A DNA stretch of 64,000 nucleotides, taken from contig NZ_CP012665.1 of NCBI RefSeq assembly GCF_001318295.1, positions 186,001 to 250,000 on the forward strand. Reading direction: 5' to 3'. Position 1 is the stretch's first letter, and every line of letters starts with the position of its first letter. The position numbers and the translations under genes were made by a program. Source of the stretch: Candidatus Xiphinematobacter sp. Idaho Grape (GTDB lineage: Bacteria; Verrucomicrobiota; Verrucomicrobiia; Chthoniobacterales; Xiphinematobacteraceae). The notes under the pieces were generated by a model. That model saw only the letters and a program-made list of their open reading frames with translations, made no database searches and had not been told where the DNA came from. Positions 4,437 through 19,462 of the stretch are shown in pieces.

Positions 4437-4560
4437 ACTGCTATTTTTTTCTGAGAGAGCCCTCTTTCCCCTATTGCAAAAGGAAAAAGTGTTGTCTTTC
4501 CTTTGTGCTCCCGCGTAATGACTTGAGGATGGAGGTTATCGAGGGTACGGTCACGCAGTG

Positions 4561-5658
4561 ATGCAGGCGATGTTTTGCAAATGCCGCGTGGTACTCACTG
4601 CTCTCCTACTTACCTGGACACTTTGGATTCCTAGGCTGGCTATGTCCGAGGTCAATACAGTTCCGAGTAGTTTTCACCCATGTTCTGTGCCTGCACGCGC
4701 CATTTACGAGCTCTCCGTACTGGTGTTAGCAATTTGCTCTGGGATTTTTGTGGTGGTTACAGCGATGCTTCTATTTGTAGTGGTACGTTACCGTAGACGT
4801 CCTACGGATAGTGCGCAGGAGCCTCCTCAAATTTACGGCAGTTCACAAATTGAATTAGCTTGGACAGTAGTTCCTATTATAATTACACTCGTGCTGATCT
4901 TAGTGACGGCCCGCACTATTGGAGAAATCCAGAACAAAAATCTTCCAGAAGATGCATTGATGGTAGAGGTGATAGGACATCAGTGGTGGTGGGAGGTGGG
5001 CTATCCCCAGTACGGAGTGAGGACAGCAAATGAAATTCACGTGCCGGTCAGTTCTTCTGCTCATCCAGCACCCACTCGAATCATATTGAAATCTGCAGAT
5101 GTACTTCATAGCTTTTGGGTGCCGCAGCTTGCTGGGAAGATGCAATTGGTCCCCAACAAAATCAACATGACCTGGATTGAACCTCTGCAAACGGGAGTGT
5201 ACTTGGGCAGCTGTGCCCAGTACTGTGGAGCCCAGCACGCTTTCATGCTACTGCGTGTGATAGTACATACCCCAGAGGGATTCCAGCGTTGGGTCGCCAG
5301 TCAAAAGGGACTTTTTGCTGGGTCATTGGCTACGGCAGCCGCAACTACTTCGCGTAGAGTCTCGAGCAAAAATAGTACAGACCTAGCAGCTAATGGGAGG
5401 AAGACGTTCTTTTCAACTGCTTGCGTAAGCTGTCATCGAATTGATGGGACCACTGCGCAGGGTACCTTTGGACCGGATTTAACACACTTAATGAGTCGAC
5501 ATACTATCGGGGCAGGAGTGGCTAAAAATACACACCAAAACCTTGCCACCTGGGTACGTGACCCACAGCTCCTAAAGCCAGGTTGCTTTATGCCAGACAT
5601 GCACTTAACTCCATCCCAAATCCACGAAGTTGTAACCTATTTGGAGACCTTGCAATAG
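4561..5658 (+). CDS. coxB: Cytochrome c oxidase subunit II with fused c-type haem domain
   Basis: CuA subunit of an aa3-type oxidase. Residues 1-28 form a signal peptide. Two membrane helices lie at about 50-75 and 98-118. The periplasmic cupredoxin domain carries the CuA ligands in VLHSFWVPQ and SCAQYCGAQHAFM. A C-terminal cytochrome c domain adds one haem at STACVSCHRIDG (about 288-292), with a late methionine in FMPDMHL as probable axial ligand, so this is a caa3-like subunit. It is first in the eight-gene respiratory operon, 21 bp before coxA. An in-frame GTG lies directly before the chosen ATG (4558), so the true start differs by one codon at most. Confidence 0.95.
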   Translation: MQAMFCKCRVVLTALLLTWTLWIPRLAMSEVNTVPSSFHPCSVPARAIYELSVLVLAICSGIFVVVTAMLLFVVVRYRRRPTDSAQEPPQIYGSSQIELAWTVVPIIITLVLILVTARTIGEIQNKNLPEDALMVEVIGHQWWWEVGYPQYGVRTANEIHVPVSSSAHPAPTRIILKSADVLHSFWVPQLAGKMQLVPNKINMTWIEPLQTGVYLGSCAQYCGAQHAFMLLRVIVHTPEGFQRWVASQKGLFAGSLATAAATTSRRVSSKNSTDLAANGRKTFFSTACVSCHRIDGTTAQGTFGPDLTHLMSRHTIGAGVAKNTHQNLATWVRDPQLLKPGCFMPDMHLTPSQIHEVVTYLETLQ

Positions 5659-5679: not shown

Positions 5680-7356
5680 GTGAGTACCCATACTAATACT
5701 ATTCCTACAAAGATGGGGGCGGGGAGGAAAGCCCTTCCTGGTTTAGTTCAGGAGCTTGTTTATACAGTTGACCATAAGAAACTAGGGATGATGTACCTAG
5801 GATCAGGCCTAGTATTTTTTATGCTAGCAGGGATAATGGCGGTCGCCATTCGTGTTCAGTTGGCTGTGCCCAATAACCATTTTCTCAATCCGAGTGCGTT
5901 CAATCAGTTCTTTACTATGCACGGCACTACTATGGTCTTCCTGGTCGGTATGCCACTAATACTAGGACTAGCAAATTACCTTGTCCCCATCATGATAGGC
6001 ACAAGAGATATGGCTTTCCCACGATTGAATGCATTCGGTTTTTGGATATTTTTATTCAGTGGATTTTTACTTTACTTTAGCTACCTGGGGGGTTCTGGAG
6101 TTTACGGTATAGGATCTGCCCCGGATGTTGGTTGGTTTGCCTACTCACCTCTAACGGCTAAAGCATTCTCTAAAGGACACAGTACAGATTATTGGACTCT
6201 TTCCCTATTGGCTGGTGGTATTGGGAGTATAGCTACAGCTATTAATCTGATAGCCACCATTTTTTGTTTGCGCTGTAGGGGAATGACGCTTAACCGTATG
6301 CCCCTTTTTGTGTGGCTTAATGCGGTTGTGGCATTTCTCATCATTCTCGCGATGCCTCCGCTTTCCGCCTGCCAGATCATGTTATGCCTAGACCGTTACC
6401 TAGGAGCCAAGTTTTTCGACACTCAAGCAGGAGGCTCTGCCATTCTCTGGCAGCATTTTTTCTGGATCTTTGGGCATCCAGAGGTCTATATTCTGATCCT
6501 TCCCGCGTTTGCTATTATCTCAGAGGTCATCCCGGTATTTTCGCGTAAGCCCATTTTCGGCTACCCAATTATGGTAATGGCAAGTGTGATGATCGCATTT
6601 ATCAGCCTTGGGGTTTGGGCGCATCACATGTTCACTGTGGGGATGAGCTCCGTTAGCAACACCTTCTTTTCAGCCTCTACCTTTGTCATAGCTGTCCCGA
6701 CTGGCATTAAGATTTTTAATTGGATTGGCACAATGTACGGGGGTAAGCTCCGCATGGAGCTTCCGTTACTATTTTCCATTGCATTCCTGTTCCAGTTTCT
6801 CATTGCTGGCTTAACAGGGGTCATGCTTGCTACCACACCCTTCGATTGGCAGCTTAATGATTCTTATTTCGTAGTTGCCCATTTCCATTACGTTCTTGTT
6901 GGAGGACTACTTTTTTCCATCTTTGCAGCCTTTTATTATTGGTATCCGAAAATGATTGGCCGCATGTTGGATGGGGCGATGGGGCGTTGGCATTTTTGGC
7001 TATTCCTCGTTGGCTTCCACCTGACTTTCTTCCCCCAACATATCATGGGTATTCTAGGGATGCCCCGGCGTATTTATAGCTATCCTGCGGATCGTGGATG
7101 GGAGATCGGGAACCTACTTTCCAGTATAGGTGTCATCTTTCAGGCTACAGGGATCCTGATTTTTTTAATTAACCTGCTTTATTCCTACTACAGGGGAAGA
7201 AGGGCTGGAGACGATCCTTGGGATGCATGGACACTAGAGTGGGCGACCACCTCTCCGCCTGCTGAGTATAATTTTGAAAAGCTGCCAGAAGTCCATAGTG
7301 CACGTCCACTCTGGGATTTAAAGCATCCAGATGAGCCGGATTGGAAACATAACTGA
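5680..7356 (+). CDS. coxA: Cytochrome c oxidase subunit I
   Basis: Catalytic haem-copper subunit, 558 residues, with about 12 membrane helices. The ligands are all visible. Haem a binds at HGTTM (H81) and at one histidine of AHFHYVLVGG. CuB is bound by the histidine in GHPEVY (H266, cross-linked tyrosine Y270) and by the AHHMFTVGM pair (H315, H316). Haem a3 is bound by the other AHFHY histidine. D-channel Asp in GTRDMAFPR and Glu in HPEVY, plus K-channel Thr/Lys in AVPTGIKIF, mark an A1-type proton pump. Translation starts at a GTG at 5680. It precedes coxC with either a small gap or an overlap, depending on the coxC start. Confidence 0.97.
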   Translation: MSTHTNTIPTKMGAGRKALPGLVQELVYTVDHKKLGMMYLGSGLVFFMLAGIMAVAIRVQLAVPNNHFLNPSAFNQFFTMHGTTMVFLVGMPLILGLANYLVPIMIGTRDMAFPRLNAFGFWIFLFSGFLLYFSYLGGSGVYGIGSAPDVGWFAYSPLTAKAFSKGHSTDYWTLSLLAGGIGSIATAINLIATIFCLRCRGMTLNRMPLFVWLNAVVAFLIILAMPPLSACQIMLCLDRYLGAKFFDTQAGGSAILWQHFFWIFGHPEVYILILPAFAIISEVIPVFSRKPIFGYPIMVMASVMIAFISLGVWAHHMFTVGMSSVSNTFFSASTFVIAVPTGIKIFNWIGTMYGGKLRMELPLLFSIAFLFQFLIAGLTGVMLATTPFDWQLNDSYFVVAHFHYVLVGGLLFSIFAAFYYWYPKMIGRMLDGAMGRWHFWLFLVGFHLTFFPQHIMGILGMPRRIYSYPADRGWEIGNLLSSIGVIFQATGILIFLINLLYSYYRGRRAGDDPWDAWTLEWATTSPPAEYNFEKLPEVHSARPLWDLKHPDEPDWKHN

Positions 7357-7390
7357 AAAAACGCAGCTTATCCATTTTTGTGTTATATCC

Positions 7391-7990
7391 ATGAGTGACG
7401 ACGGACCAGGTGGAGCATCATCTCCTGCCACTGAGTGGAAGCTACCCTCTGTCAGAAAGGTAGCTATGATTTCTCTTATCACTGCGGAGAGTGCTTTATT
7501 TTGCATCTTTCTCGTTGCCTATGCGTTCTACATTGGCAAAAGCCTGAACCCACCTTCTCCAAAAGAAATCCTTGAGTGGCCTATCCTCGCTTCTATAGCT
7601 TTGTTGTCAAGTAGTGGGACTATCGTTTTCGCTGAAAAGGCACTTTATGGAGGTCGATTAGCAAGGTTCCATTGCTGGTGGCTAGTTACTATCCTCCTTG
7701 GAATGACTTTTCTAGGATACACGGCTCGTGAGTGGTATGAGTTCATCCACCATCGCCACTTTACGCTTGCTACGAACGTTTTTGGCTCCACCTTCTATTC
7801 ACTGATAGGGCTTCATGTTAGCCATGTTATTGCCGGTTTGGTCCTGCTTTTGCTTGTTTTCGCCATGAGCCTTGTAGGAAAGGTCAGGGCGGAGCATCAT
7901 GAGCATGTGGAAATGGTGTCTTGGTATTGGCACTTTGTAGATATAGTCTGGGTAGTTGTCTTTGTTGTTGTCTATGTAATTGGCCGTTAA
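7391..7990 (+). CDS. coxC: Cytochrome c oxidase subunit III
   Basis: Integral membrane subunit that stabilises the oxidase, about 199 residues with five helices. Family features include KVAMISLITAESALFCIFLV near the N-terminus, the GREWYEF-like REWYEFIHHRHF segment, and GLHVSHVIAGLVLL followed by the C-terminal VSWYWHFVDIVWVVVFVVVY. I place the start at the ATG at 7391 (MSDDGPGGASSP). An in-frame ATG at 7331 would add 20 residues and overlap coxA by 26 bp. It is followed after 14 bp by the next operon member. Confidence 0.93.
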   Translation: MSDDGPGGASSPATEWKLPSVRKVAMISLITAESALFCIFLVAYAFYIGKSLNPPSPKEILEWPILASIALLSSSGTIVFAEKALYGGRLARFHCWWLVTILLGMTFLGYTAREWYEFIHHRHFTLATNVFGSTFYSLIGLHVSHVIAGLVLLLLVFAMSLVGKVRAEHHEHVEMVSWYWHFVDIVWVVVFVVVYVIGR

Positions 7991-8004
7991 AGCTAGGGTT
8001 TTCT

Positions 8005-8829
8005 ATGTCGAAACTACGTGATTCTCAAGAGCTAGATTGCATTCAGCTGCCTGTACCGACGCCGTGGCCTATGGCAGCTGCATTTGCCATGGTCCTTATC
8101 TTTGCTGGGTTGGTAACCAGCCTAGCAGTCTCCTTTACCGGACTCCTTTGTGCAATAGTAGCATTCGTTGGTTGGTTCTTGGACGTTTTTCCACATCCAC
8201 AACATGGAGCGGTAGAATTGAAACCTCTGGAGGAACGAGCTGCACCAGTGCTGATGACAGAACGCACTATCTCTTACCTGCAAGGAGGTAGTTATCGAGT
8301 TCATGTTCCGGTGCATGTACACAGCTATTCTTCCGGAATTCTCGGCGGAATATCTGGCGGGATTGCCATGGCAATTGTAGCTCTGACCTTCGGGTGTCTG
8401 GAGGGAAGTGTTTGGTATCCAATCAATCTGGTCGCTACGGCCGGTTTGCCCAATCTAGGAGCCATGGATAAGGAGGGTCTTAAGCAATTCCACTTCTGGG
8501 CGCTTTTGGTGGGCTTTATAGTCCATGTTTCTTTTTCCGTCTTAGTCGGGCTTTTGTATGTGGCCTTGCTACCAACCTTACCAGCAAAGTTTGGATGGCT
8601 TTGGGGGAGTATTGCAGCACCTCTTATTTGGACCTCTCTAGTCTATTCCTTTCTAAGTGCTATCAATCCTGCACTTGCAGCGCACGTCTCTTGGCCCTGG
8701 TTCATTCTTAGCCAGGTAATGTTTGGTTTGGTGGCAGGGATTGTAGTATATAGAACTGCCAGAATCAGCATCATGCAGACCTGGTCTCTCGTAGATAGGA
8801 TGGGTGTAGGAGGGATGCGAAAGAGGTAA
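8005..8829 (+). CDS. Multi-pass membrane protein of the oxidase operon
   Basis: A 274-residue membrane protein with about seven helices, beginning MSKLRDSQELDCIQLPVPTP. An earlier in-frame codon exists, but it lies inside coxC. The first helices (about 20-65) end in FLDVFPHPQHG, and a segment near residues 100-130 runs RVHVPVHVHSYSSGILGGI. No redox cofactor motif is visible, although several histidines lie near helix ends. It sits exactly where small accessory subunits or oxidase-associated proteins occur in bc/aa3 operons, and its stop is directly followed by the next start. A role as accessory oxidase subunit or quinol-oxidising partner is inference from position. I do not recognise a named family. 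Confidence 0.8.
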   Translation: MSKLRDSQELDCIQLPVPTPWPMAAAFAMVLIFAGLVTSLAVSFTGLLCAIVAFVGWFLDVFPHPQHGAVELKPLEERAAPVLMTERTISYLQGGSYRVHVPVHVHSYSSGILGGISGGIAMAIVALTFGCLEGSVWYPINLVATAGLPNLGAMDKEGLKQFHFWALLVGFIVHVSFSVLVGLLYVALLPTLPAKFGWLWGSIAAPLIWTSLVYSFLSAINPALAAHVSWPWFILSQVMFGLVAGIVVYRTARISIMQTWSLVDRMGVGGMRKR

Positions 8830-9633
8830 GTGAGACACCTCTACTGGAAAGCTGTGGATACTAGTAGGTTGCTTAAGTTGTCAGTAATGGCGTCGTGGCT
8901 ATGTGTTACGATAGGTGAGACTTTCTTCCTAGGTGGATGTAGGTTACCTGGCAAGCCGGCCGTTACCGACTTATGGCGACCACCAGAATCCAATTTAGAC
9001 TTCCATAGCCTCTACACAACTAACTGTATCGCCTGCCATGCAGATCAGCGGGGAATAATTTCCCCTTCCATCAATCTGAACAATAGTGTGTACCTCTCTT
9101 TGATTACTCCGGAGAAAATGCGCCAAATTATTTCCGATGGAGTCCCTGGGACAGCTATGCCAGCTTTTTCGGAAAAAAGCGGAGGCCGGTTGACCGAAGC
9201 ACAGATCAATGTGCTCGTAAAGGGGGTTTATGCATGGAGGCTTCCTGGAGAAACGTTCCCCTCGTCACTACCTGCGTACACCGCTCCTTTAGGAGATGCC
9301 AAGCACGGAGCAGCCGTGTTCTCTACATATTGTGCTGGTTGTCACGCAGAAGACATAAAAGCCAAAGTAGAGGGATCGATTATAGGATCTTCCTATCTTG
9401 GGTTGGTATCTAATCAGTATCTACGGACAGTAATTATTTCTGGTCGGCCAGAGATTGGCCAGCCAAATTGGAAAGAATTATCACCAATGTCCGATCAAGA
9501 CGTATCGGACGTAGTAGCCTGGATGTCTGCACAACGTTGTAACGGTAGACAAAAGAGTTCTTTCCTAAATGGGATAGATTACACGTCAGGGCGTACCTCC
9601 CGGCTAAGAAACAAGAATGTAACAGAGAAGTGA
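8830..9633 (+). CDS. Di-haem cytochrome c lipoprotein
   Basis: A 267-residue exported cytochrome with two c-type haem sites: TTNCIACHADQ (C66, C69, H70) and STYCAGCHAED (C168, C171, H172). Methionines in AMPAFSE and SPMSDQD are plausible sixth ligands. The N-terminus is a lipoprotein signal with lipobox FFLGGC (C37), so the protein should be anchored to a membrane. The GTG start at 8830 follows the previous stop directly, and its own stop overlaps the Rieske start by four bases, which suggests translational coupling. The likely role is to carry electrons between the Rieske/cytochrome b complex and CuA. No soluble cytochrome c is encoded in the operon. Confidence 0.93.
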   Translation: MRHLYWKAVDTSRLLKLSVMASWLCVTIGETFFLGGCRLPGKPAVTDLWRPPESNLDFHSLYTTNCIACHADQRGIISPSINLNNSVYLSLITPEKMRQIISDGVPGTAMPAFSEKSGGRLTEAQINVLVKGVYAWRLPGETFPSSLPAYTAPLGDAKHGAAVFSTYCAGCHAEDIKAKVEGSIIGSSYLGLVSNQYLRTVIISGRPEIGQPNWKELSPMSDQDVSDVVAWMSAQRCNGRQKSSFLNGIDYTSGRTSRLRNKNVTEK

Positions 9634-10244
9634 AAACGAATAACAGCAAGACCACTGAGATAGAGAGAGATACTAGGCTCTGTAAGGGGGGTAACCAGTC
9701 ATCTCGGCGTGACTTCCTATTAAAGGTGGGTATTGGACTAAATATCGCTGCCGGAGTTATGGTAGGTATTCCAGTAATAGGATATGTTTTTTCTAGCCTT
9801 ATCAGGAGGCCCAAACTCCATTGGATCGCACTTGGAGAGACCGATTCTTTCCCAGAGGAAGAAACACGCTTATCAAAGTATAGAAACCCAAGCCATCGCC
9901 CCTGGGATGGGGCAATTACGGACATTCCTTGCTGGGTCCGCCGGCTAAAGGGGGATGTTTTTCAGGTTTTTGCCATTAACTGCACCCACTTAGGCTGCCC
10001 CGTGCGTTGGTTTGCCGAATCCAAGCTCTTCTTTTGTCCGTGTCATGGAGGAGTTTACTACCAAGATGGTTCCAGGGCGGCTGGCCCTCCTCCACGGGGC
10101 TTGTTTGAGTATGAAACCAAGATTGAGGAAAAGAAGCTTTGGATTAAGGGCGGAATCCTGCCGACTCTAGCGAATACTCCTCAGAAGGTTTACTTGAATG
10201 ACTTCACTAAGGAACAAGGAGAAGAAACAGCGAGTGTAAAGTAA
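9630..10244 (+). CDS. qcrA: Rieske iron-sulphur protein
   Basis: A 204-residue Rieske protein of a bc-type quinol oxidase complex. The [2Fe-2S] ligands lie in NCTHLGCPVRW (C118, H120) and FFCPCHGGVYY (C136, H139), with the structural disulphide cysteines C123 and C138. The N-terminus has a twin-arginine motif SSRRDFL followed by a single hydrophobic helix (about 33-57). That is typical of Tat-exported Rieske proteins that keep the helix as anchor. It starts at a GTG inside a GTGA overlap with the cytochrome c gene. It is followed after 30 bp by the cytochrome b/c gene. Confidence 0.95.
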   Translation: MKTNNSKTTEIERDTRLCKGGNQSSRRDFLLKVGIGLNIAAGVMVGIPVIGYVFSSLIRRPKLHWIALGETDSFPEEETRLSKYRNPSHRPWDGAITDIPCWVRRLKGDVFQVFAINCTHLGCPVRWFAESKLFFCPCHGGVYYQDGSRAAGPPPRGLFEYETKIEEKKLWIKGGILPTLANTPQKVYLNDFTKEQGEETASVK

Positions 10245-10274
10245 GATTAAACACTTTTAAACATTGGCTAGTTG

Positions 10275-11720
10275 ATGCGAATACTGCGAAATGTAGCTTT
10301 TTGGCTTGATGATCGCCTGCATATTACCCACCTTTTTAAGGAAACGGCAGGACATCCTATCCCTAAAACTTCTGCAAGTTGGTTCTACGTTTTTGGCAGC
10401 GCAACGCTCCTATGTTTGGGTGTCCAGATTGTGAGCGGCATCTGTCTGGCCTTAGTTTACATACCCTCCGGTTCAGAATCTTATTCTACGCTACGTTATC
10501 TAACCCTCTATCAAGAGTTGGGATGGCTCTTGCGAGGTATGCACTGTTGGGGATCCAACTTCATGGTTGTTATCATGGCATTGCACATGACTCAAGTGTT
10601 TCTCTGGGGTGCCTATAAATATCCTAGAGAGATGACATGGATTTCTGGGTGTGCTCTACTGGTTATCACTCTTGGACTGGCATTTACAGGGCAGATCCTC
10701 CGTTTTGATGAGGATGCCTATTGGGGGCTAGGTATCGGTGCTTCCATCCTTGCACGCGTGCCCCTTGTGGGGGACCAGCTTGTCCATCTTGTGTTGGGGG
10801 GAGCCATTATTTCAGCGGACACTCTTTCACGCTTCTTTGCTTTGCATGTGTTTGTACTACCAGGATTAGCGTTGGCTATCGTCGGGCTCCACTTATATCT
10901 GGTAGTTTTGAAGGGGATCAACGAGTACCCTCAACCGGGAATACAAGTTAGAAAGGATACCTATGATGCTGAGTACCGCACCATTTTGGCAAAGGAGAGT
11001 ATTCCATTTGTTCCAAAAGCGATTGGTAAGGACTTAATAGCTGCTGCAATTGTCCTTTTTGGTATTGTCAGCTGTGCAGCAATCTTTGGGCCTAAGGGTC
11101 CAATGGGACCGCCTGTCCCAACGCAGATTGATTCCGTACCACGTCCAGATGCTCCTTTTATGTGGATTTTTGCTTTGGCAGCATTACTGCCAGACTATAT
11201 GGAGGATGTAGTCATTTTGGGTGCGCCCCTGCTTTTTGGAGGCCTGTTACTGTCGCTTCCATTCCTTTCGAATGAGGGAGAAAAGAGTTGGAGAAGACGT
11301 CCTATTGCCATCTTAGCTGTAATTCTTCTTTATCTCTCTGTTGGACTATTGACTTACTTAGGATACACTGCTCCATGGTCACCAGATATGAATGCTTGGA
11401 CAGCTGCACCTATTCCCCAAAAGTTTTTGGAGGGCCGTACTCCTCTTGAGCTTGCCGGTGCTTCCATTCTACAGTTCAAGCAGTGTCGTAATTGTCACGC
11501 TCTTGGTAGCGTAGGAGGTTGTCGTGGACCAGATCTATCAGATGTGGGAACTCGCTTGACAGCACCACAGCTAGCCCGCCAAATCCTTCAGGGAGGCGGA
11601 AATATGCCCGCCTATGGAAAAAACCTTAGCCCTTACGAAATAAAGGCACTGGTGGACTATATGGTTACCCTGCGTCCAAAACATATTCCAGCTACACGTG
11701 GATCTATTGCATCCCCGTAA
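10275..11720 (+). CDS. Cytochrome b fused to a C-terminal cytochrome c domain
   Basis: Quinol-oxidising cytochrome b of the complex III equivalent, 481 residues. The N-terminal four-helix part binds two b haems through the histidines in RGMHCWGSN, MALHMTQVF, FFALHVFV and GLHLYLV. The second pair is spaced by 14 residues, as in b6f-type rather than mitochondrial-type cytochrome b. A subunit-IV-like part with about three more helices follows, then a cytochrome c domain with CRNCHAL (about 404-408) and a GGNMPAYG methionine. At the Qo site, where families usually have PEWY or PDWY, the sequence reads PRPDAPFMWIF. A TTG one codon before the chosen ATG is an alternative start. Confidence 0.93.
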   Translation: MRILRNVAFWLDDRLHITHLFKETAGHPIPKTSASWFYVFGSATLLCLGVQIVSGICLALVYIPSGSESYSTLRYLTLYQELGWLLRGMHCWGSNFMVVIMALHMTQVFLWGAYKYPREMTWISGCALLVITLGLAFTGQILRFDEDAYWGLGIGASILARVPLVGDQLVHLVLGGAIISADTLSRFFALHVFVLPGLALAIVGLHLYLVVLKGINEYPQPGIQVRKDTYDAEYRTILAKESIPFVPKAIGKDLIAAAIVLFGIVSCAAIFGPKGPMGPPVPTQIDSVPRPDAPFMWIFALAALLPDYMEDVVILGAPLLFGGLLLSLPFLSNEGEKSWRRRPIAILAVILLYLSVGLLTYLGYTAPWSPDMNAWTAAPIPQKFLEGRTPLELAGASILQFKQCRNCHALGSVGGCRGPDLSDVGTRLTAPQLARQILQGGGNMPAYGKNLSPYEIKALVDYMVTLRPKHIPATRGSIASP

Positions 11721-11870: not shown

Positions 11871-14147
11871 ATGGAACAGGTAGCAGAAGCCGCAATATTT
11901 TCCTGGAATTGGGAGCCAGCGGTTCTGCTTCCCCTCTCCTTCTCCCTGTGGGTTTACAGACGTGGGTGGAAGAAGCTACGTACCTTGGCTCCCTCTCGCT
12001 TCCCACTCTGGCGTTTCCTCTGCTTCCTGGGAGGCTCAGTGGTCCTGTTTTTAGCTATTTGTTCGCCACTAGATACTTTTGGGAACCTTCTATTGCAGGT
12101 GCACATGGTGCAGCACCTGCTGCTTACGATGATAGTACCCCCGCTCTTACTTCTCGGGTTTCCCTATCTACCTATTCTTCTTGGGCTGCCTCGTGGGTTG
12201 GTTGCCAATGTGCTGGGGCCGTTCCTTTCCTGGAAGATATTAAAGATACTTGGAAAATTTCTGACCCATCCAGCAATATGCTGTGGCTTGTTTCTTTTCT
12301 CCAATATCCTTTGGCATGTACCTTTCTTCTACGAAGCGGCACTTAAGTTTCCCGTTTGGCACAAAACAGAACACGCTTGTTTTGTGTGGACCTCTTTACT
12401 CTTCTGGTGGCCAGTTATCCAGCCATGGCCCAGTCGTGCTTGTTGGCCTCGCTGGACGATGGTTCCCTATTTACTCATAGCAGACCTTCAAAACACCATC
12501 CTCTCTGCCTTTCTCTCCTTTTGTGATCACGCCCTTTACCAAACATACGCCATAGCTCCACGCATAGGCGGGATTAGCACATTGGAGGACCAAGCAGCCG
12601 CTGGAGCCATTATGTGGGTGCCTGGATCCATTGTTTTTCTGGCACCTGTCAGTCTGATTGTCTTCCAGTTTCTAAGTCCACAAAGATCGGTGATTTACCA
12701 ACCTGCGATAGTTATTCATAAACCTTTGCCCAATAGTCCTTTTGACCTTCTAAGAGCTCCACTAGTTGGCAGCCTCCTGCGCAGAAAGGCCGTTCGCCGA
12801 TTTCTGCAGGTGACTCTATTAATGCTAGCAATCTTAGTCATGATAGAAGGATGGTGGGGACCCCAGTTTGGTCCAATGAATCTTGCTGGAATTTTGCCTT
12901 GGACACACTGGAGGGGATTAACTGTGATGGGACTATTGATTGCTGGAAATTTTTTTTGCATGGCTTGTCCTTTCACCCTAACACGCGACTTGGCACGGAG
13001 GATTCTGCCATTCCAGCGTTGGAGCTGGCCAAAGTGGCTGCGCACCAAGTGGATTGCAGTAGGACTCCTGGTTCTTTTTTTCTGGGCCTATGAAGCCTTC
13101 AGCCTATGGAACTCCCCCAGGCTAACGGCAGGGATAATAGCGGGATATTTTTCGTTAGTGGTGCTGATAGATGTTCTCTTCAAGAATGCGGCTTTTTGCA
13201 AGTACGTTTGCCCAATTGGGCAGTTCCATTTTGTGCAATCCCTTAATTCTCCCCTACAAGTACAGGCACGAGACGCAACTGTGTGCGCATCATGTCGCAC
13301 TTATGATTGCATTCGGGGAAGCACCATAGAAAAAAAGAGAAAAAATCGTGGCTGTGAGCTACACCTTTTTCAGCCGCACAAGCATGGGAATATGGATTGT
13401 ACATTCTGCCTGGACTGCGTGTACGCGTGTCCCAAGGACAACGTCGGTTTAGTTATGTCACCTCCATGGAAAGAATTAGCGCTAGACCATAAACGCTCTG
13501 GAGTAGGCAGATATTCACATCGCTTTGACCTAGCAGTACTCGTTGTGGTTTTAACATTTGGAGCATTTGCGAATGCCATGGGCATGGTAACGCCGGTCCT
13601 CCAATTGGAAAATACGATAAAAACCCTGTGTGGGATTACTTCTACACTTCCAATAGTTACAGCGTTCTATATCTTGGCACTTCTCGTTTTACCGGCAATC
13701 ACAGTAAGCCTAGCAGGCTGGTTAAGTCTACGCTTAGGTAAACCCCAAGCAGGCTGGAAGCAAATTTTCTCACAACTCTCCATGAGTTTAGTTCCTGTGG
13801 GGTTTGGGATGTGGCTCTCCCATTTTCTTTTCCACTTCTTTACAGCCTCTCACACATTTATCCCGGCCTTTCAGAGATTTTTTTCTGATATAGGACTTCC
13901 TCTGCTGGGAACACCGGATTGGTCCATACGTTCCTGGGCCTTTCCGGGGTTATTAGGCTGGGAACTGCTTCTACTTGATCTTGGACTTTTAATGGGACTC
14001 TTTGTGGCATGGGAACGTGCAGGCCTTTTAGGTTTAAGTACTTCTCGGTTGGGAATATTTCTTCCATGGGGAACACTCATCTTACTGCTTTACTCAGTCG
14101 GTGCATGGATTCTCCTTCAGCCTATGGACATGCGCGGCACTATCTGA
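11871..14147 (+). CDS. CtaG-like oxidase assembly domain fused to a membrane polyferredoxin
   Basis: A 758-residue fusion. About residues 1-280 match the caa3_CtaG family of oxidase copper-assembly factors, with VHMVQHLLLTMIVPP, FSNILWHVPFFYEAA and WHKTEHACFVWTSLLFWWP. The rest looks like a NapH/CcoG-type membrane iron-sulphur protein. It has NFFCMACPFTL (about 362-368), CKYVCPIGQFH (about 443), CASCRTYDC (about 472-480) and a ferredoxin motif CTFCLDCVYACPKDN (about 510), set among further helices. It closes the respiratory operon 150 bp after the cytochrome b/c gene. The inferred role is copper delivery and redox-dependent assembly of the oxidase. The chosen ATG gives MEQVAEAAIFSWNW; a TTG 42 bp earlier is possible. 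Confidence 0.85.
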   Translation: MEQVAEAAIFSWNWEPAVLLPLSFSLWVYRRGWKKLRTLAPSRFPLWRFLCFLGGSVVLFLAICSPLDTFGNLLLQVHMVQHLLLTMIVPPLLLLGFPYLPILLGLPRGLVANVLGPFLSWKILKILGKFLTHPAICCGLFLFSNILWHVPFFYEAALKFPVWHKTEHACFVWTSLLFWWPVIQPWPSRACWPRWTMVPYLLIADLQNTILSAFLSFCDHALYQTYAIAPRIGGISTLEDQAAAGAIMWVPGSIVFLAPVSLIVFQFLSPQRSVIYQPAIVIHKPLPNSPFDLLRAPLVGSLLRRKAVRRFLQVTLLMLAILVMIEGWWGPQFGPMNLAGILPWTHWRGLTVMGLLIAGNFFCMACPFTLTRDLARRILPFQRWSWPKWLRTKWIAVGLLVLFFWAYEAFSLWNSPRLTAGIIAGYFSLVVLIDVLFKNAAFCKYVCPIGQFHFVQSLNSPLQVQARDATVCASCRTYDCIRGSTIEKKRKNRGCELHLFQPHKHGNMDCTFCLDCVYACPKDNVGLVMSPPWKELALDHKRSGVGRYSHRFDLAVLVVVLTFGAFANAMGMVTPVLQLENTIKTLCGITSTLPIVTAFYILALLVLPAITVSLAGWLSLRLGKPQAGWKQIFSQLSMSLVPVGFGMWLSHFLFHFFTASHTFIPAFQRFFSDIGLPLLGTPDWSIRSWAFPGLLGWELLLLDLGLLMGLFVAWERAGLLGLSTSRLGIFLPWGTLILLLYSVGAWILLQPMDMRGTI

Positions 14148-15862: not shown

Positions 15863-16789
15863 TCATTCTGGCTTAAGTGCCGTTGCAATAATAGTCTGGA
15901 AGTGAGGGGCCTGTCTCTCCCTAGAGACAACGGAGATTTCTGTCTTTATGAACGCAGCTCTCTCCAAGAATTGGTGCAACTCGATTTCAGAAAATCCTAA
16001 CCAGACATGTGCATATAACTCACGTGCCTGTTCATAGGTGTGGCTCACTAAGTCCAAAATCAAAACCCTCCCACCAGGTCGGAGAATACGTGCTGCCTCG
16101 TAGAGGGCGCGCTGCGGGCTGGAGGTGTGATGCAAGGCTTGGCTGAAAAGTGCCAGATCAACCTCTCCATCCTTTATGGGGAGGTTTTCAATATCTCCCA
16201 GGCGATATTCTAGATTTTGGCATCCATGGCTACGAGCCAAAGAAGAACCAAATTTTACCATAGCTGCAGAATTATCTACGGCAATTACCCTTTGAGCAGT
16301 ACGTGCGAGTAGTTGCGAGAGGGTGCCTTCTCCTGCACCTAAATCTGCAATTACTCCTGGAGGAAGAATCCTTAAAAGAGCGTGTGCTAGTGCCTGCCAA
16401 GACCTTCCAGGAATATATGCACGGTCAAATTTTCCGGCTAATTTGCTAAAGTACTCCGTCGCCCTATCCTTCCTTTTTTGGAGGGCAAGGAGTAAAGCAT
16501 TTTTATCGCGGTTAATATCTGGTAAGTCCTCAACAACTCTTCGCAGCAAAAAGTTCAGGGGCTCCAGCCTACCGTGCACGGCGGAGTAAAAAACGTTTTT
16601 TCCGACTCGACGCTGAGCAACCAAGGCTTCTCGGTGAAGCAATGCAAGATTAGCCGAAATCCTGGACTGGCCCATGCCAAGGATTTCTTGAAGCTCTGCT
16701 ACAGTAAGTTCCTCTTCTAACAATAAGGAGAGAAGTCGGAGGCGAGTAGGCTCGGTAAGTACTTTAAGCACTTGAAGGAGGGAACCCAT
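15863..16789 (-). CDS. ArsR-type repressor fused to a SAM-dependent methyltransferase domain
   Basis: A 308-residue two-domain regulator. Residues 1-85 form a winged helix of the ArsR family (LKVLTEPTRLRLLSLLLEEE, then AELQEILGMGQSRISANLAL). From about residue 110 a class I methyltransferase fold follows, with the SAM-binding motif VIADLGAGEGTLSQLL, AVDNSAAMV and LFSQALHHT. Proteins of this layout, including the SahR type, are known to sense SAM or SAH and repress methionine-cycle genes. Here it is divergent from metK-ahcY, with only 59 bp between start codons, which fits that role. No other targets can be seen. Whether it methylates anything or only uses the fold as a sensor cannot be told. 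Confidence 0.88.
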   Translation of the reverse strand: MGSLLQVLKVLTEPTRLRLLSLLLEEELTVAELQEILGMGQSRISANLALLHREALVAQRRVGKNVFYSAVHGRLEPLNFLLRRVVEDLPDINRDKNALLLALQKRKDRATEYFSKLAGKFDRAYIPGRSWQALAHALLRILPPGVIADLGAGEGTLSQLLARTAQRVIAVDNSAAMVKFGSSLARSHGCQNLEYRLGDIENLPIKDGEVDLALFSQALHHTSSPQRALYEAARILRPGGRVLILDLVSHTYEQARELYAHVWLGFSEIELHQFLERAAFIKTEISVVSRERQAPHFQTIIATALKPE

Positions 16790-16808
16790 ACTTAAGTTTA
16801 TGAAGTTA

Positions 16809-16828
16809 TTGACATGTTTTGATATGTA
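16809..16828 (+). promoter_or_regulatory. Tandem 10-bp repeat, candidate operator over a -35 box
   Basis: Between the regulator and metK the sequence reads TTGACATGTT directly followed by TTGATATGTA, a head-to-tail repeat with a period of one helical turn. The first copy contains a perfect TTGACA. At a spacing of 16 bp there is only a weak -10 candidate, TTTATC at 16831. Repressor binding here would block metK transcription and perhaps the regulator's own. The assignment is inferred from position and repeat structure. Confidence 0.45.
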
Positions 16829-16848
16829 GATTTATCTGTTTAAGGACA

Positions 16849-18018
16849 ATGCCCCGCCAATTCGTTTTTGCCTCCGAGTCTGTAGGAGAGGGACATCCCG
16901 ACAAGGTATGTGACACAATTTCCGATGCCATCTTAGATGCGTGTTTGGTTCAAGATGAAGATAGCCGCGTTGCTTGTGAAATTTATGCCAAGAGCAACCT
17001 ATTAGTAATAGGAGGAGAAATCACGACGCGGGCCAAGGTGGCTTACAACGACATTGCTAGGAGAGCAATCCGGGAAATTGGGTATGTAGATGACGATGAC
17101 GTTTTCCATGCTGATAAAATCCTCATTCTCAATGCCATCACAAAGCAAAGTGAGGATATTGCCAGAGGGATAACCAAAAAGGCTAGCAGAAGGAGAGTTG
17201 CTGAACAATGCGCTGGTGATCAGGGCTTAATGTTTGGGTATGCTTGTATCGAGACCCCGGAACTAATGCCAGCACCCATTATGTTTGCACATCGTCTCGG
17301 CTACGAATTGACTCGTCTACGCAAGCAAGGTGGAATCGGCTGGCTGCGGCCCGATACCAAAAGTCAAGTCTCCGTCGTTTACACCGGAAATAAACCCACT
17401 GCTATTTCTAGCGTAGTAGTTTCCACTCAGCACACTCCGGATATCTCACAGAAAGAGATTAAGTCCTTTGTTACTGAGGAGGTGGTTTGGAAGGTACTAC
17501 CTCTAGAATTGCTTAACAGCGAAACACGTCTTCTAGTTAATCCTACTGGGAACTTTGTGGTGGGAGGGCCTCAAGGCGATGCAGGACTCACAGGGAGGAA
17601 AATTATTGTGGATACTTATGGTGGTATGGGGCGGCATGGTGGCGGAGCCTTTTCCGGAAAAGATCCCTCCAAAGTAGACCGTTCTGCGGCCTATATGGGG
17701 CGATACGTAGCAAAAAACGTGGTAGCAGCTCAAATAGCAGATCAGTGTGAAGTCCAACTTGCTTATGCCATTGGATGTGCCGAGCCTGTTAGTCTACACG
17801 TCAATACTTTTGGAACATCAAAGATAGATGAAGCGCGTATTGAAGCCGCTGTAAAAGCTGTTTTTGGGTTTAGGCCAGCCGAAATTACTAAACAGTTAGG
17901 CTTGCTCAGACCTATCTATTCTAAAACCACCAACTATGGGCACTTTGGTAAAGTAGGTGGGGAATTTTCCTGGGAGAGGACTGATAAAATAGAGGCCCTC
18001 CGGGAAGCCATAAAATAA
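16849..18018 (+). CDS. metK: S-adenosylmethionine synthetase
   Basis: Makes SAM from methionine and ATP in the cytoplasm. The 389-residue protein starts [20 protein letters not shown], the usual MetK N-terminus with the ATP-binding GHPDK. Later signatures are [12 protein letters not shown]-like [13 protein letters not shown], the phosphate loop [19 protein letters not shown] and the C-terminal YGHFGK. An upstream TTG at 16819 is in frame, but the ATG at 16849, preceded by AAGG, matches the family start. It is followed after 13 bp by ahcY, so the two form the core of the SAM cycle under the divergent regulator. Confidence 0.97.
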
Positions 18019-18031
18019 GAACTTGAATCCT

Positions 18032-19462
18032 ATGAATACTGCAAACCTAATTTCCCATCAGGCGGACCATCAAGTAGCGAACCTTGCACTTGCCAATTGG
18101 GGGCGCAAGGAAATTACCATGGCCGAGCATGAAATGCCCGGACTCATGGCACTTCGGACAAAGTGGAGTAAAGAAAAACCCCTGCAAAACGTGCGGATTA
18201 CTGGTTTGGTTCATATGACCGTCCAAACAGCGGTACTTATCGAGACTCTCTGCAGACTAGGTGCTTCTGTACGTTGGGCAAGCTGCAATGTTTTCTCCAC
18301 GCAAGACCACGCCGCGGCTGCTATTGCTAAGGCGGGAGTGGCTATCTTTGCATGGAAGGGGGAGACGCTGGGAGAGTACTGGCAATGTATCTATCGGGCT
18401 CTCTGTTTCCCAGGGGGGCAAGGGCCCCACCTTATCATAGATGATGGTGGAGACGCTACCTTTCTTGTTCATAAAGGCTACGAGCTAGAAGAAGGCAGCG
18501 ACTGGGTGAATGCTTCGTCTATAACCTCTGAAGAGAACATCATCAAAAATCTTCTGAAGCGAGTCCATATGGAAATCCCCTTCCACTGGCATGAGATTAC
18601 CAAGGAGTGGTGCGGAGTTGCTGAAGAAACCACTACCGGTATACGCCGCCTTTATAAGATGTTAGAACAAGGAAGACTCTTGGTACCCGCCATCAATGTC
18701 AATGACTCCGTTACTAAGTCAAAGTTCGACAATTTGTATGGTTGCCGCGAGTCTATAGTGGACGGAATTAAGCGTGCCACTGATGTGATGATTGCTGGAA
18801 AGGTCGCAGTTGTTTGTGGATATGGGCCTGTAGGTAAAGGGTGTGCACACGCACTTTGTAGGTTCGGTGCACGTGTGATTGTCACAGAGATTGATCCTAT
18901 TAATGCTCTGCAAGCAGCAATGGAGGGGTTTGAGGTTACTTGTGTGGAGCAATCGCTTGGAAAAGCCGATATCTATGTGACTGCCACTGGCAATTGTGAT
19001 GTTCTAACCCTAGAGCATGTCTTTGAAATGAAGGATCAGGCCATTGTTTGCAACATTGGACATTTTGATAACGAGATCCAAGTGGACCGTTTGAACCGAC
19101 ACCCTAGGGTTACTAAGTTAAACATTAAGCCGCAACTAGACTGTTATGAACTCCCTAATGGCCACCAGATTTACCTGCTAGCAGAAGGGCGTCTAGTTAA
19201 TTTAGGGTGTGCCACCGGACATCCTAGCTTTGTGATGTCTAATTCCTTTACTAACCAGGTGCTTGCACAAATTGATCTGTGGGAGAACCGCAAGCAATAC
19301 AAAGCTGGGATTTATCGCCTGCCTAAGCATTTAGATGAAGAAGTAGCTCGTCTGCATCTGGGAAAAATTGGGGTCCGACTTACACGACTAACGCCTATTC
19401 AAGCAGACTATCTCGGTGTGCCTGTAGAAGGACCATATAAGCCTGAACGCTACCACTATTGA
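18032..19462 (+). CDS. ahcY: Adenosylhomocysteinase
   Basis: Hydrolyses S-adenosylhomocysteine to homocysteine and adenosine, removing the inhibitor left by methyltransferases. The protein is about 476 residues, as in the long bacterial/eukaryotic form. Visible signatures are [17 protein letters not shown], the NAD-binding [33 protein letters not shown] and the C-terminal [12 protein letters not shown]-like [12 protein letters not shown]. An in-frame TTG three codons upstream (18023) is an alternative start. It is the second gene of the metK-ahcY pair, and its 3' end slightly overlaps a gene remnant on the other strand. Confidence 0.97.

Follow-up and report, generated by a model that had tools for sequence, protein, structure and literature searches.

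A CtaG–polyferredoxin fusion protein as a candidate redox module for loading copper into a single type of A-family cytochrome c oxidase

In the genome of Candidatus Xiphinematobacter sp. Idaho Grape, a symbiont of nematodes, a single polypeptide joins a CtaG domain to a NapH-like polyferredoxin and a further conserved membrane domain, and we suspect, with a probability of roughly 60%, that it serves as a redox module in the copper maturation of a single A-family cytochrome c oxidase type. The gene lies in a stretch of 64,000 nucleotides (the window), to which positions refer unless a genome is named. According to our reading, the CtaG half would handle copper for subunit I or II, and the polyferredoxin half would take electrons from a donor into up to three Fe-S clusters on the cytoplasmic side. 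These electrons would in turn keep copper, or a carrier of it (Sco or the YtkA/FixH-like protein that we call H), reduced beside CtaG. Such a module fits because separate polyferredoxin genes cluster with genes for Sco, YtkA-like proteins and H, and because the fusion co-occurs with the oxidase; the electron transfer itself, Cu(II) as its substrate and the place of action are points that we infer.

The fusion gene (positions 11,871–14,147, + strand) is a single frame of 758 residues followed by one stop. The mechanically called open reading frame starts earlier, at a TTG (11,829), which is a possible start and would give 772 residues. The first frame of the reverse complement of this interval contains many stops, and the open reading frame list holds no minus-strand frame of at least 120 residues across it. 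The original prediction, that CtaG and a polyferredoxin are combined in one 758-residue protein, is confirmed by translation, Pfam and the AlphaFold model, with the PF09678 and Fer4_5 (PF12801) profiles both scoring above cut-off in the same chain. A frameshift or a pair of adjacent genes is ruled out, since full-length matches without internal stops are found in other species, including a second reduced genome with 83% identity to the fusion.

Along the chain, a Caa3_CtaG domain (residues 27–268) is followed by a disordered linker, the NapH-like polyferredoxin part (about 291–540) and the C-terminal membrane domain (541–758). AlphaFold models the whole protein with a mean pLDDT of 91.2 and a pTM of 0.70, and pLDDT falls below 50 over three or more consecutive residues only in the linker core (residues 272–279; 12,684–12,707, +). 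Searched with the whole model and with the polyferredoxin half, Foldseek returned no match at E ≤ 0.001, which is not proof of a new fold; the best VIA-align Z scores, 6.0 and 6.8 respectively, lie in a range that the program's own note terms common. A sequence search for solved relatives of the fusion likewise found none, its one row (E 0.16) being taken as chance. For one pair of reduced genomes, our own (G000, one contig of 915,884 bases) and G003 (a contig of 917,278 bases), simple counting gives dN/dS values of 0.084/0.676 (about 0.12) for CtaG, 0.071/0.673 (about 0.11) for the NapH-like part and 0.115/0.801 (about 0.14) for the C-terminal domain. Given these low ratios, the CtaG and polyferredoxin halves both seem to be maintained by selection in reduced genomes. 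Linker residues 271–290 evolve without visible constraint (dN 0.443, dS 0.434, a ratio of about 1 over 20 codons).

The CtaG half (11,949–12,674, +) matches Pfam PF09678 (175.4 bits, cut-off 27.7; E 1.7e-51), covering positions 1–235 of the 237 in the profile; with the CtaG equivalog model TIGR02737 it scores 57.5 bits and does not reach the cut-off of 279.35. H78, M79, Q81, H82, H149, H164, H168 and M248 are kept in all 43 fused rows of our alignment, and D240 in 42 of them. We take D240 to be the counterpart of D249 in Bacillus subtilis CtaG, a pairing made without aligning the two proteins. The B. subtilis residue is described as an invariant Asp (PMC8239418). AlphaFold renders this half as helical, and hydropathy and the positive-inside rule suggest that its His, Met and Asp residues face outward, the outward side of the His set being read from charge counts. 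According to a 2022 review, the role of Caa3_CtaG at CuB needs confirmation, and in a CtaG fusion the site served may be CuA rather than CuB (PMC9145763). Elsewhere, copper trafficking is described as involving CtaM and CtaG, and a fusion of CtaG with CopD is reported (PMC13344008).

The NapH-like polyferredoxin part (12,741–13,490, +), delimited by Pfam, NCBIfam and conservation, had been predicted to hold at least two cysteine clusters. Twelve invariant cysteines are indeed present, in the pattern C363xxC366P, C443xxxC447P, C472xxC475xxxxC480, C495 and C510xxC513xxC516xxxC520P, and they are shared by fused and separate forms alike (62–64 of the 62–64 rows having a residue there, in an alignment of 43 fused rows that comprises 64 once separate forms are added). 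Twelve would suffice for three four-Cys Fe-S clusters, and judging from hydropathy and positive charge all of them probably lie on the cytoplasmic side. In AlphaFold this half has a pLDDT of 88.7 and a pTM of 0.90. The PF12801 score is 26.8 bits against a cut-off of 22, with the best stretch at residues 428–451; three other members that were scanned score 17.1, 16.5 and 18.6 bits, all below that cut-off, and a genome-wide PF12801 search reported no match. The nearest curated family is NapH/MauN (TIGR02163), matched over residues 352–525 at E 3.9e-12 and 46.2 bits against a cut-off of 213.05. The CcoG model (TIGR02745) matches weakly, at E 4.9e-4 and 19.2 bits (20.7 for the half alone) against 316.7, and membership in CcoG is rejected on that account. 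The NapH/CcoG-like label first given to this half therefore stands in part: the protein is closer to NapH than to CcoG, but reaches the cut-off of neither.

Beyond the polyferredoxin, about 218 residues (541–758; 13,491–14,144, +) make up an additional conserved membrane domain that carries no annotation and was not part of the original prediction; its extent is drawn from conservation and the AlphaFold model. The model is nearly all helical here, with no C-terminal Ig-like periplasmic domain, and fold searches with the whole model and the polyferredoxin half gave no clear PDB match for it. M572, W648, H651 and H655 are invariant in the alignment, and M647 (57 of 60 rows) and a QPMxMRG ending (Q750 in 58/59, P751 in 60/60, M752 in 57/60 and M754 in 58/60) are nearly so. 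By hydropathy and positive charge, these Met and His residues are predicted to face the outside of the membrane. A tentative extension of the redox module would be a relay in which electrons pass from the cytoplasm-side Fe-S clusters to an outward site made up of M572, M647, H651, H655, M752 and M754, reducing Cu(II) outside the membrane and passing Cu(I) on to CtaG in the same chain; H and Sco or YtkA would be its partners. The same six residues could conceivably move copper themselves, the C-terminal domain replacing an ATPase and the Fe-S part setting the redox state. Conserved Met and His residues at the predicted outer face would suit such a passage, as would the fact that the only P-type ATPase found in the genome is one that we take not to be of the copper type, but we regard it as very unlikely: distant homologues have the His pair as well, and part of the PMxM end, and no transporter-like match was prominent in the fold comparison, itself weak evidence.

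These distant polyferredoxin homologues (L118–L120) include the C-terminal domain and keep H651, H655 and part of the PMxMR ending, with the MWxxHxxxH of the copper-linked forms changed to YHxxHxxxH by replacement of M647-W648 with YH. Next to L118 lie genes for a molybdopterin oxidoreductase and a second membrane Fe-S protein, and next to L119 a gene that reads as a molybdopterin oxidoreductase. Since the His pair is shared by all three and L118 lies by such an oxidoreductase, the site need not be copper-specific. The setting of L118, together with NapH/MauN being the best curated match, is also what a role in respiratory transfer would lead one to expect, the protein acting as a NapH-like quinol dehydrogenase for a cytochrome or other acceptor and sharing with CtaG an operon only. 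We nevertheless think this improbable, because the neighbours of the separate polyferredoxin genes are Sco, YtkA and H, along with a ZnuA-type metal-binding protein and ABC transporter genes in Gemmatimonadota, and because such a role would hardly explain why the protein is linked covalently to a copper factor, or why the CtaG-H fusions described below exist.

In line with the operon first proposed, the fusion lies in the same gene run as the oxidase, downstream of the cox and bc genes on the same strand. The run comprises coxB (subunit II, cytochrome c-like at its C-terminus; 4,558–5,658, +), coxA (subunit I, to which the copper is probably delivered, with homologues in relatives; 5,680–7,356, +) and coxC (subunit III, in the same order in relatives; 7,331–7,990, +), all three named by reading. 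They are followed by a membrane protein with no Pfam match (7,921–8,829, +; real start probably near 8,005), a two-domain cytochrome c (8,830–9,633, +; PF13442 in two stretches), a Rieske iron-sulphur protein (9,630–10,244, +; PF00355) and a cytochrome b that ends in a cytochrome c domain (10,272–11,720, +; PF00033 and PF13442). The last is the nearest gene upstream of the fusion and ends 150 bp before its ATG. The run as a whole is rich in fused genes, as seen in the cytochrome b with its cytochrome c domain, the two-domain cytochrome c and, by reading, the coxB with its cytochrome c tail. Further downstream (15,863–19,462), an ArsR-like regulator joined to a methyltransferase on the minus strand stands beside metK and ahcY on the plus strand, all of them named by reading. 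A promoter scan gave fewer sites than in shuffled sequence, so nothing is concluded on regulation, and an Rfam scan found five tRNAs only.

The architecture is not confined to this genome. Query matches were obtained in 21 of 57 relatives (our own genome included), and 19 of them have the fusion; the remaining two are G046, where a contig end holds just the polyferredoxin half, and G032, with CtaG alone. A scan of a species-genome collection gave at least 69 loci, a lower bound because only loci that matched one of six peptide patterns exactly could be retrieved. Both searches together yield 84 loci: 42 with the fusion (this locus among them as L001, two, L013 and L022, with identical rows, and three cut by contig ends), 21 with a polyferredoxin but no CtaG, and 21 with a CtaG but no polyferredoxin. 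Contig ends also affect L049, which begins inside the gene, and L075, which ends inside CtaG. Fusions occur in three phyla (Verrucomicrobiota, Planctomycetota and Acidobacteriota), and the polyferredoxin has a gene of its own in Gemmatimonadota, Thermomicrobiota and Chloroflexota. Within Verrucomicrobiota the distribution is patchy: 40 of 288 sampled genomes match at E ≤ 1e-20, with CtaG alone in 34, the polyferredoxin part alone in four and the full fusion in only two, of the same genus, so that a phylum-wide trait is rejected.

In the polyferredoxin tree, one branch parts fused from separate forms with support of 100/100, and it stays at 100/99 with 66 rows, after five acidobacterial rows were added and duplicates dropped. 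The CtaG tree (83 rows) has CtaGs without a polyferredoxin scattered among the fused ones, which forces at least four changes of the fused label, as does the tree of 80 rows from which L075 and duplicates were removed. Both trees fit one old fusion followed by repeated loss of the polyferredoxin half, the direction of which we infer, the trees being unrooted. A chance chimera, or a read-through of two genes with no joint function, had nothing in its favour and is extremely improbable given a fusion found in three phyla, a single split with support of 100/100 and 100/99, and low dN/dS over both halves. We also considered whether separate polyferredoxins in Acidobacteriota are broken-off pieces of fusions and rejected this, as all four group with the other separate forms. 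Among 20 genomes in which CtaG lacks a polyferredoxin (L075 left out), 14 have no polyferredoxin anywhere, one has a weak match, four have a separate polyferredoxin and one has a second, fused copy. Because many acidobacterial CtaGs come without it, the polyferredoxin is dispensable to CtaG in some settings.

A cytochrome b gene is the nearest recognised upstream gene in 36 of the 42 fused loci, the exceptions being L032, with a flank of just 69 bp, and L007, L019, L024, L038 and L041. Constant proximity to coxBAC, a point raised in the original prediction, does not hold: of the 15 fused loci whose available upstream sequence reaches 7.5 kb or more, 12 have coxB-coxA-coxC there, and L024, L038 and L041 lack it. 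On the other side of the fusion, the neighbourhoods bring out H, a new YtkA/FixH-like protein with a putative signal peptide and a C-terminal transmembrane segment, which on our reading is a predicted beta-sandwich. The gene for H is directly downstream of the fusion in 28 of 42 loci, with a weak match (3.6e-5) at the locus end in L015, and seven of the 13 fused loci without an H match end within 760 bp. H lies about 2.5 kb downstream of the fusion in G033, and in our own genome it is distant from it (G000:C1:436474-437022, minus strand; E 2e-46). Five H proteins scored at best 19.3 bits with YtkA (PF13115, cut-off 25.9) and 13.8 with FixH (PF05751, cut-off 23); those of our genome and of L117 had no Pfam match at 0.01, and no conserved metal motif was found across 24 rows of H. 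In six of the 21 CtaG-only loci, all acidobacterial (L056, L057, L059, L060, L061 and L062), CtaG is fused straight to H, looking as if the polyferredoxin may have been excised from the middle; these CtaG-H fusions sit in two clades of the CtaG tree.

Separate polyferredoxins keep similar company. A YtkA-like gene lies upstream in 20 of 21 loci, the remaining one having no flank, and H lies downstream in 15, with two of the other six cut off; a CtaG is encoded elsewhere in 20 of these 21 genomes, with no match in G064 (L050). Sco belongs to the cluster in 14 of the 21 (11/11 in Gemmatimonadota, 3/5 in the Thermomicrobiota branch and 0/5 in Chloroflexota). Pfam confirmed the YtkA-like neighbours for L042, L055 and L063 and the Sco neighbours for L071, L040 and L048. 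The 11 Gemmatimonadota loci share the order of a divergent ZnuA-type gene (11/11), sco, the ytkA-like gene and the polyferredoxin, with ABC transporter genes, by reading, in 10; H comes next after the polyferredoxin in 10, and L052 ends at the polyferredoxin. In the Thermomicrobiota branch (L048–L051 and L054; L050 and L051 were assigned from the tree), all five loci have H downstream and three have sco. The ytkA-like gene is the only neighbour found in the five Chloroflexota loci, and the four with downstream flank (L063–L066) have neither Sco nor H. An H-like gene is beside the separate polyferredoxin in all four CtaG-only genomes that have one, and a YtkA-like gene in three of the four. In acidobacterial clusters L113–L116, a conserved, His-rich membrane protein of about 200 residues (the L114 copy without a Pfam match) accompanies a separate polyferredoxin, with a YtkA-like lipoprotein in between in L113, L114 and L116 and FG-GAP repeat proteins afterwards in L113.

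The frequent presence of Sco in these clusters (14/21 loci) brings up the main rival to copper reduction, in which the polyferredoxin would send electrons outward to the Cys pair of Sco or to the CuA site of coxB and thus act as a thiol reductant. In its favour, Sco has a thioredoxin-like fold and one match in our own genome. We consider such a role rather unlikely, since the polyferredoxin half has no conserved outward Cys, all 12 being predicted cytoplasmic, and since the partner to which it is fused is CtaG, neither Sco nor a thioredoxin.

The proposed link to oxidase maturation is borne out by gene neighbourhood and by co-occurrence with one coxA type. A coxA with at least 65% identity to our own is present in 18 of 57 genomes, in some as fragments, and the fusion is found in 18 of these 18; the 65% line was set after a gap between 65% and 56% had been seen, and the genomes are related, so these co-occurrences are not independent events. 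Thirty-two genomes have only other coxA-like genes (at most 56%) and no fusion, and five have neither a coxA match nor the fusion. The other two are G039 (82% complete, 690 contigs), with the fusion and only other coxA types found, and G046 (89% complete, 620 contigs), with the polyferredoxin-half match and a coxA fragment at 57%. Within one genus (g7), G054 has both the coxA type and the fusion, and G009 and G025 have neither. The two lie on different contigs in G018, G023, G052 and G054.

As for the rest of the copper pathway, our genome retains four consecutive genes: ctaA, ctaB (matched by the UbiA family), sco and a CtaM-type gene of the DUF420 family. Its single Sco match has an AhpC/TSA match, which is a thioredoxin-like fold. 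Cox11 was considered as a copper factor and dropped, having no match in the genome. A PF00122 search found no copper-type P-type ATPase, its sole hit in this genome (G000 C1:873057-873626) having no CPC motif; we take this lack to mean that it is not of the copper type, and it reads like a magnesium pump. With no copper P-type ATPase found, a CcoG/CcoI-like route of reduction in the cytosol followed by export cannot be assumed.

The closest functional parallel is CcoG/RdxA/FixG, a membrane polyferredoxin that, as we propose for the fusion, takes part in the copper maturation of an oxidase: CcoG is described as a cupric reductase of the Fe-S type, its gene is in a conserved ccoGHIS cluster, and some homologues such as YccM also have no C-terminal Ig-like domain (PMC7558416). 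Just as ccoG is followed by ccoH, the fusion is often followed by the small, membrane-anchored H. It differs from CcoG in lying under the TIGR02745 cut-off (19.2 versus 316.7 bits), in being joined to CtaG, in its nearly all-helical C-terminus without an Ig-like domain, and in being associated with an A-type rather than a cbb3 oxidase, with no CcoI-like ATPase found in our genome. From NapH/MauN it differs by score (46.2 versus 213.05 bits), by the extra membrane domain of about 218 residues and by polyferredoxin neighbours that are copper-maturation genes rather than nap genes. Corynebacterium glutamicum CtiP, described as CopD joined to CtaG (PMC9145763), similarly couples a CtaG domain to another copper-related membrane module, but there CtaG is C-terminal and its partner is CopD, whereas in the fusion CtaG is N-terminal and its partner an Fe-S protein. 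In Archaeoglobus fulgidus, CopZ, a copper carrier, is described as joined to an Fe-S domain with Cu(II)-reducing activity (PMC7558416), a combination similar to the one that we propose here; CopZ is a cytosolic chaperone and the fusion a membrane protein, and the two are likened by description, not by sequence. Our best reading, by analogy, is that the fusion may work like CcoG, yet it is no CcoG or NapH by curated cut-offs. No CtaG–polyferredoxin fusion was found among the matches listed in a search of literature titles and abstracts, a scope outside which most subscription papers fall.

No copper reductase of A-type oxidases is known to us. The fusion, and the separate form clustered with Sco, would indicate a specific redox partner for CtaG, and the neighbourhoods bring H forward as a further conserved partner. 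If the tentative relay were true, it would allow an endosymbiont whose genome yielded no copper P-type ATPase to load its oxidase with copper taken from outside.
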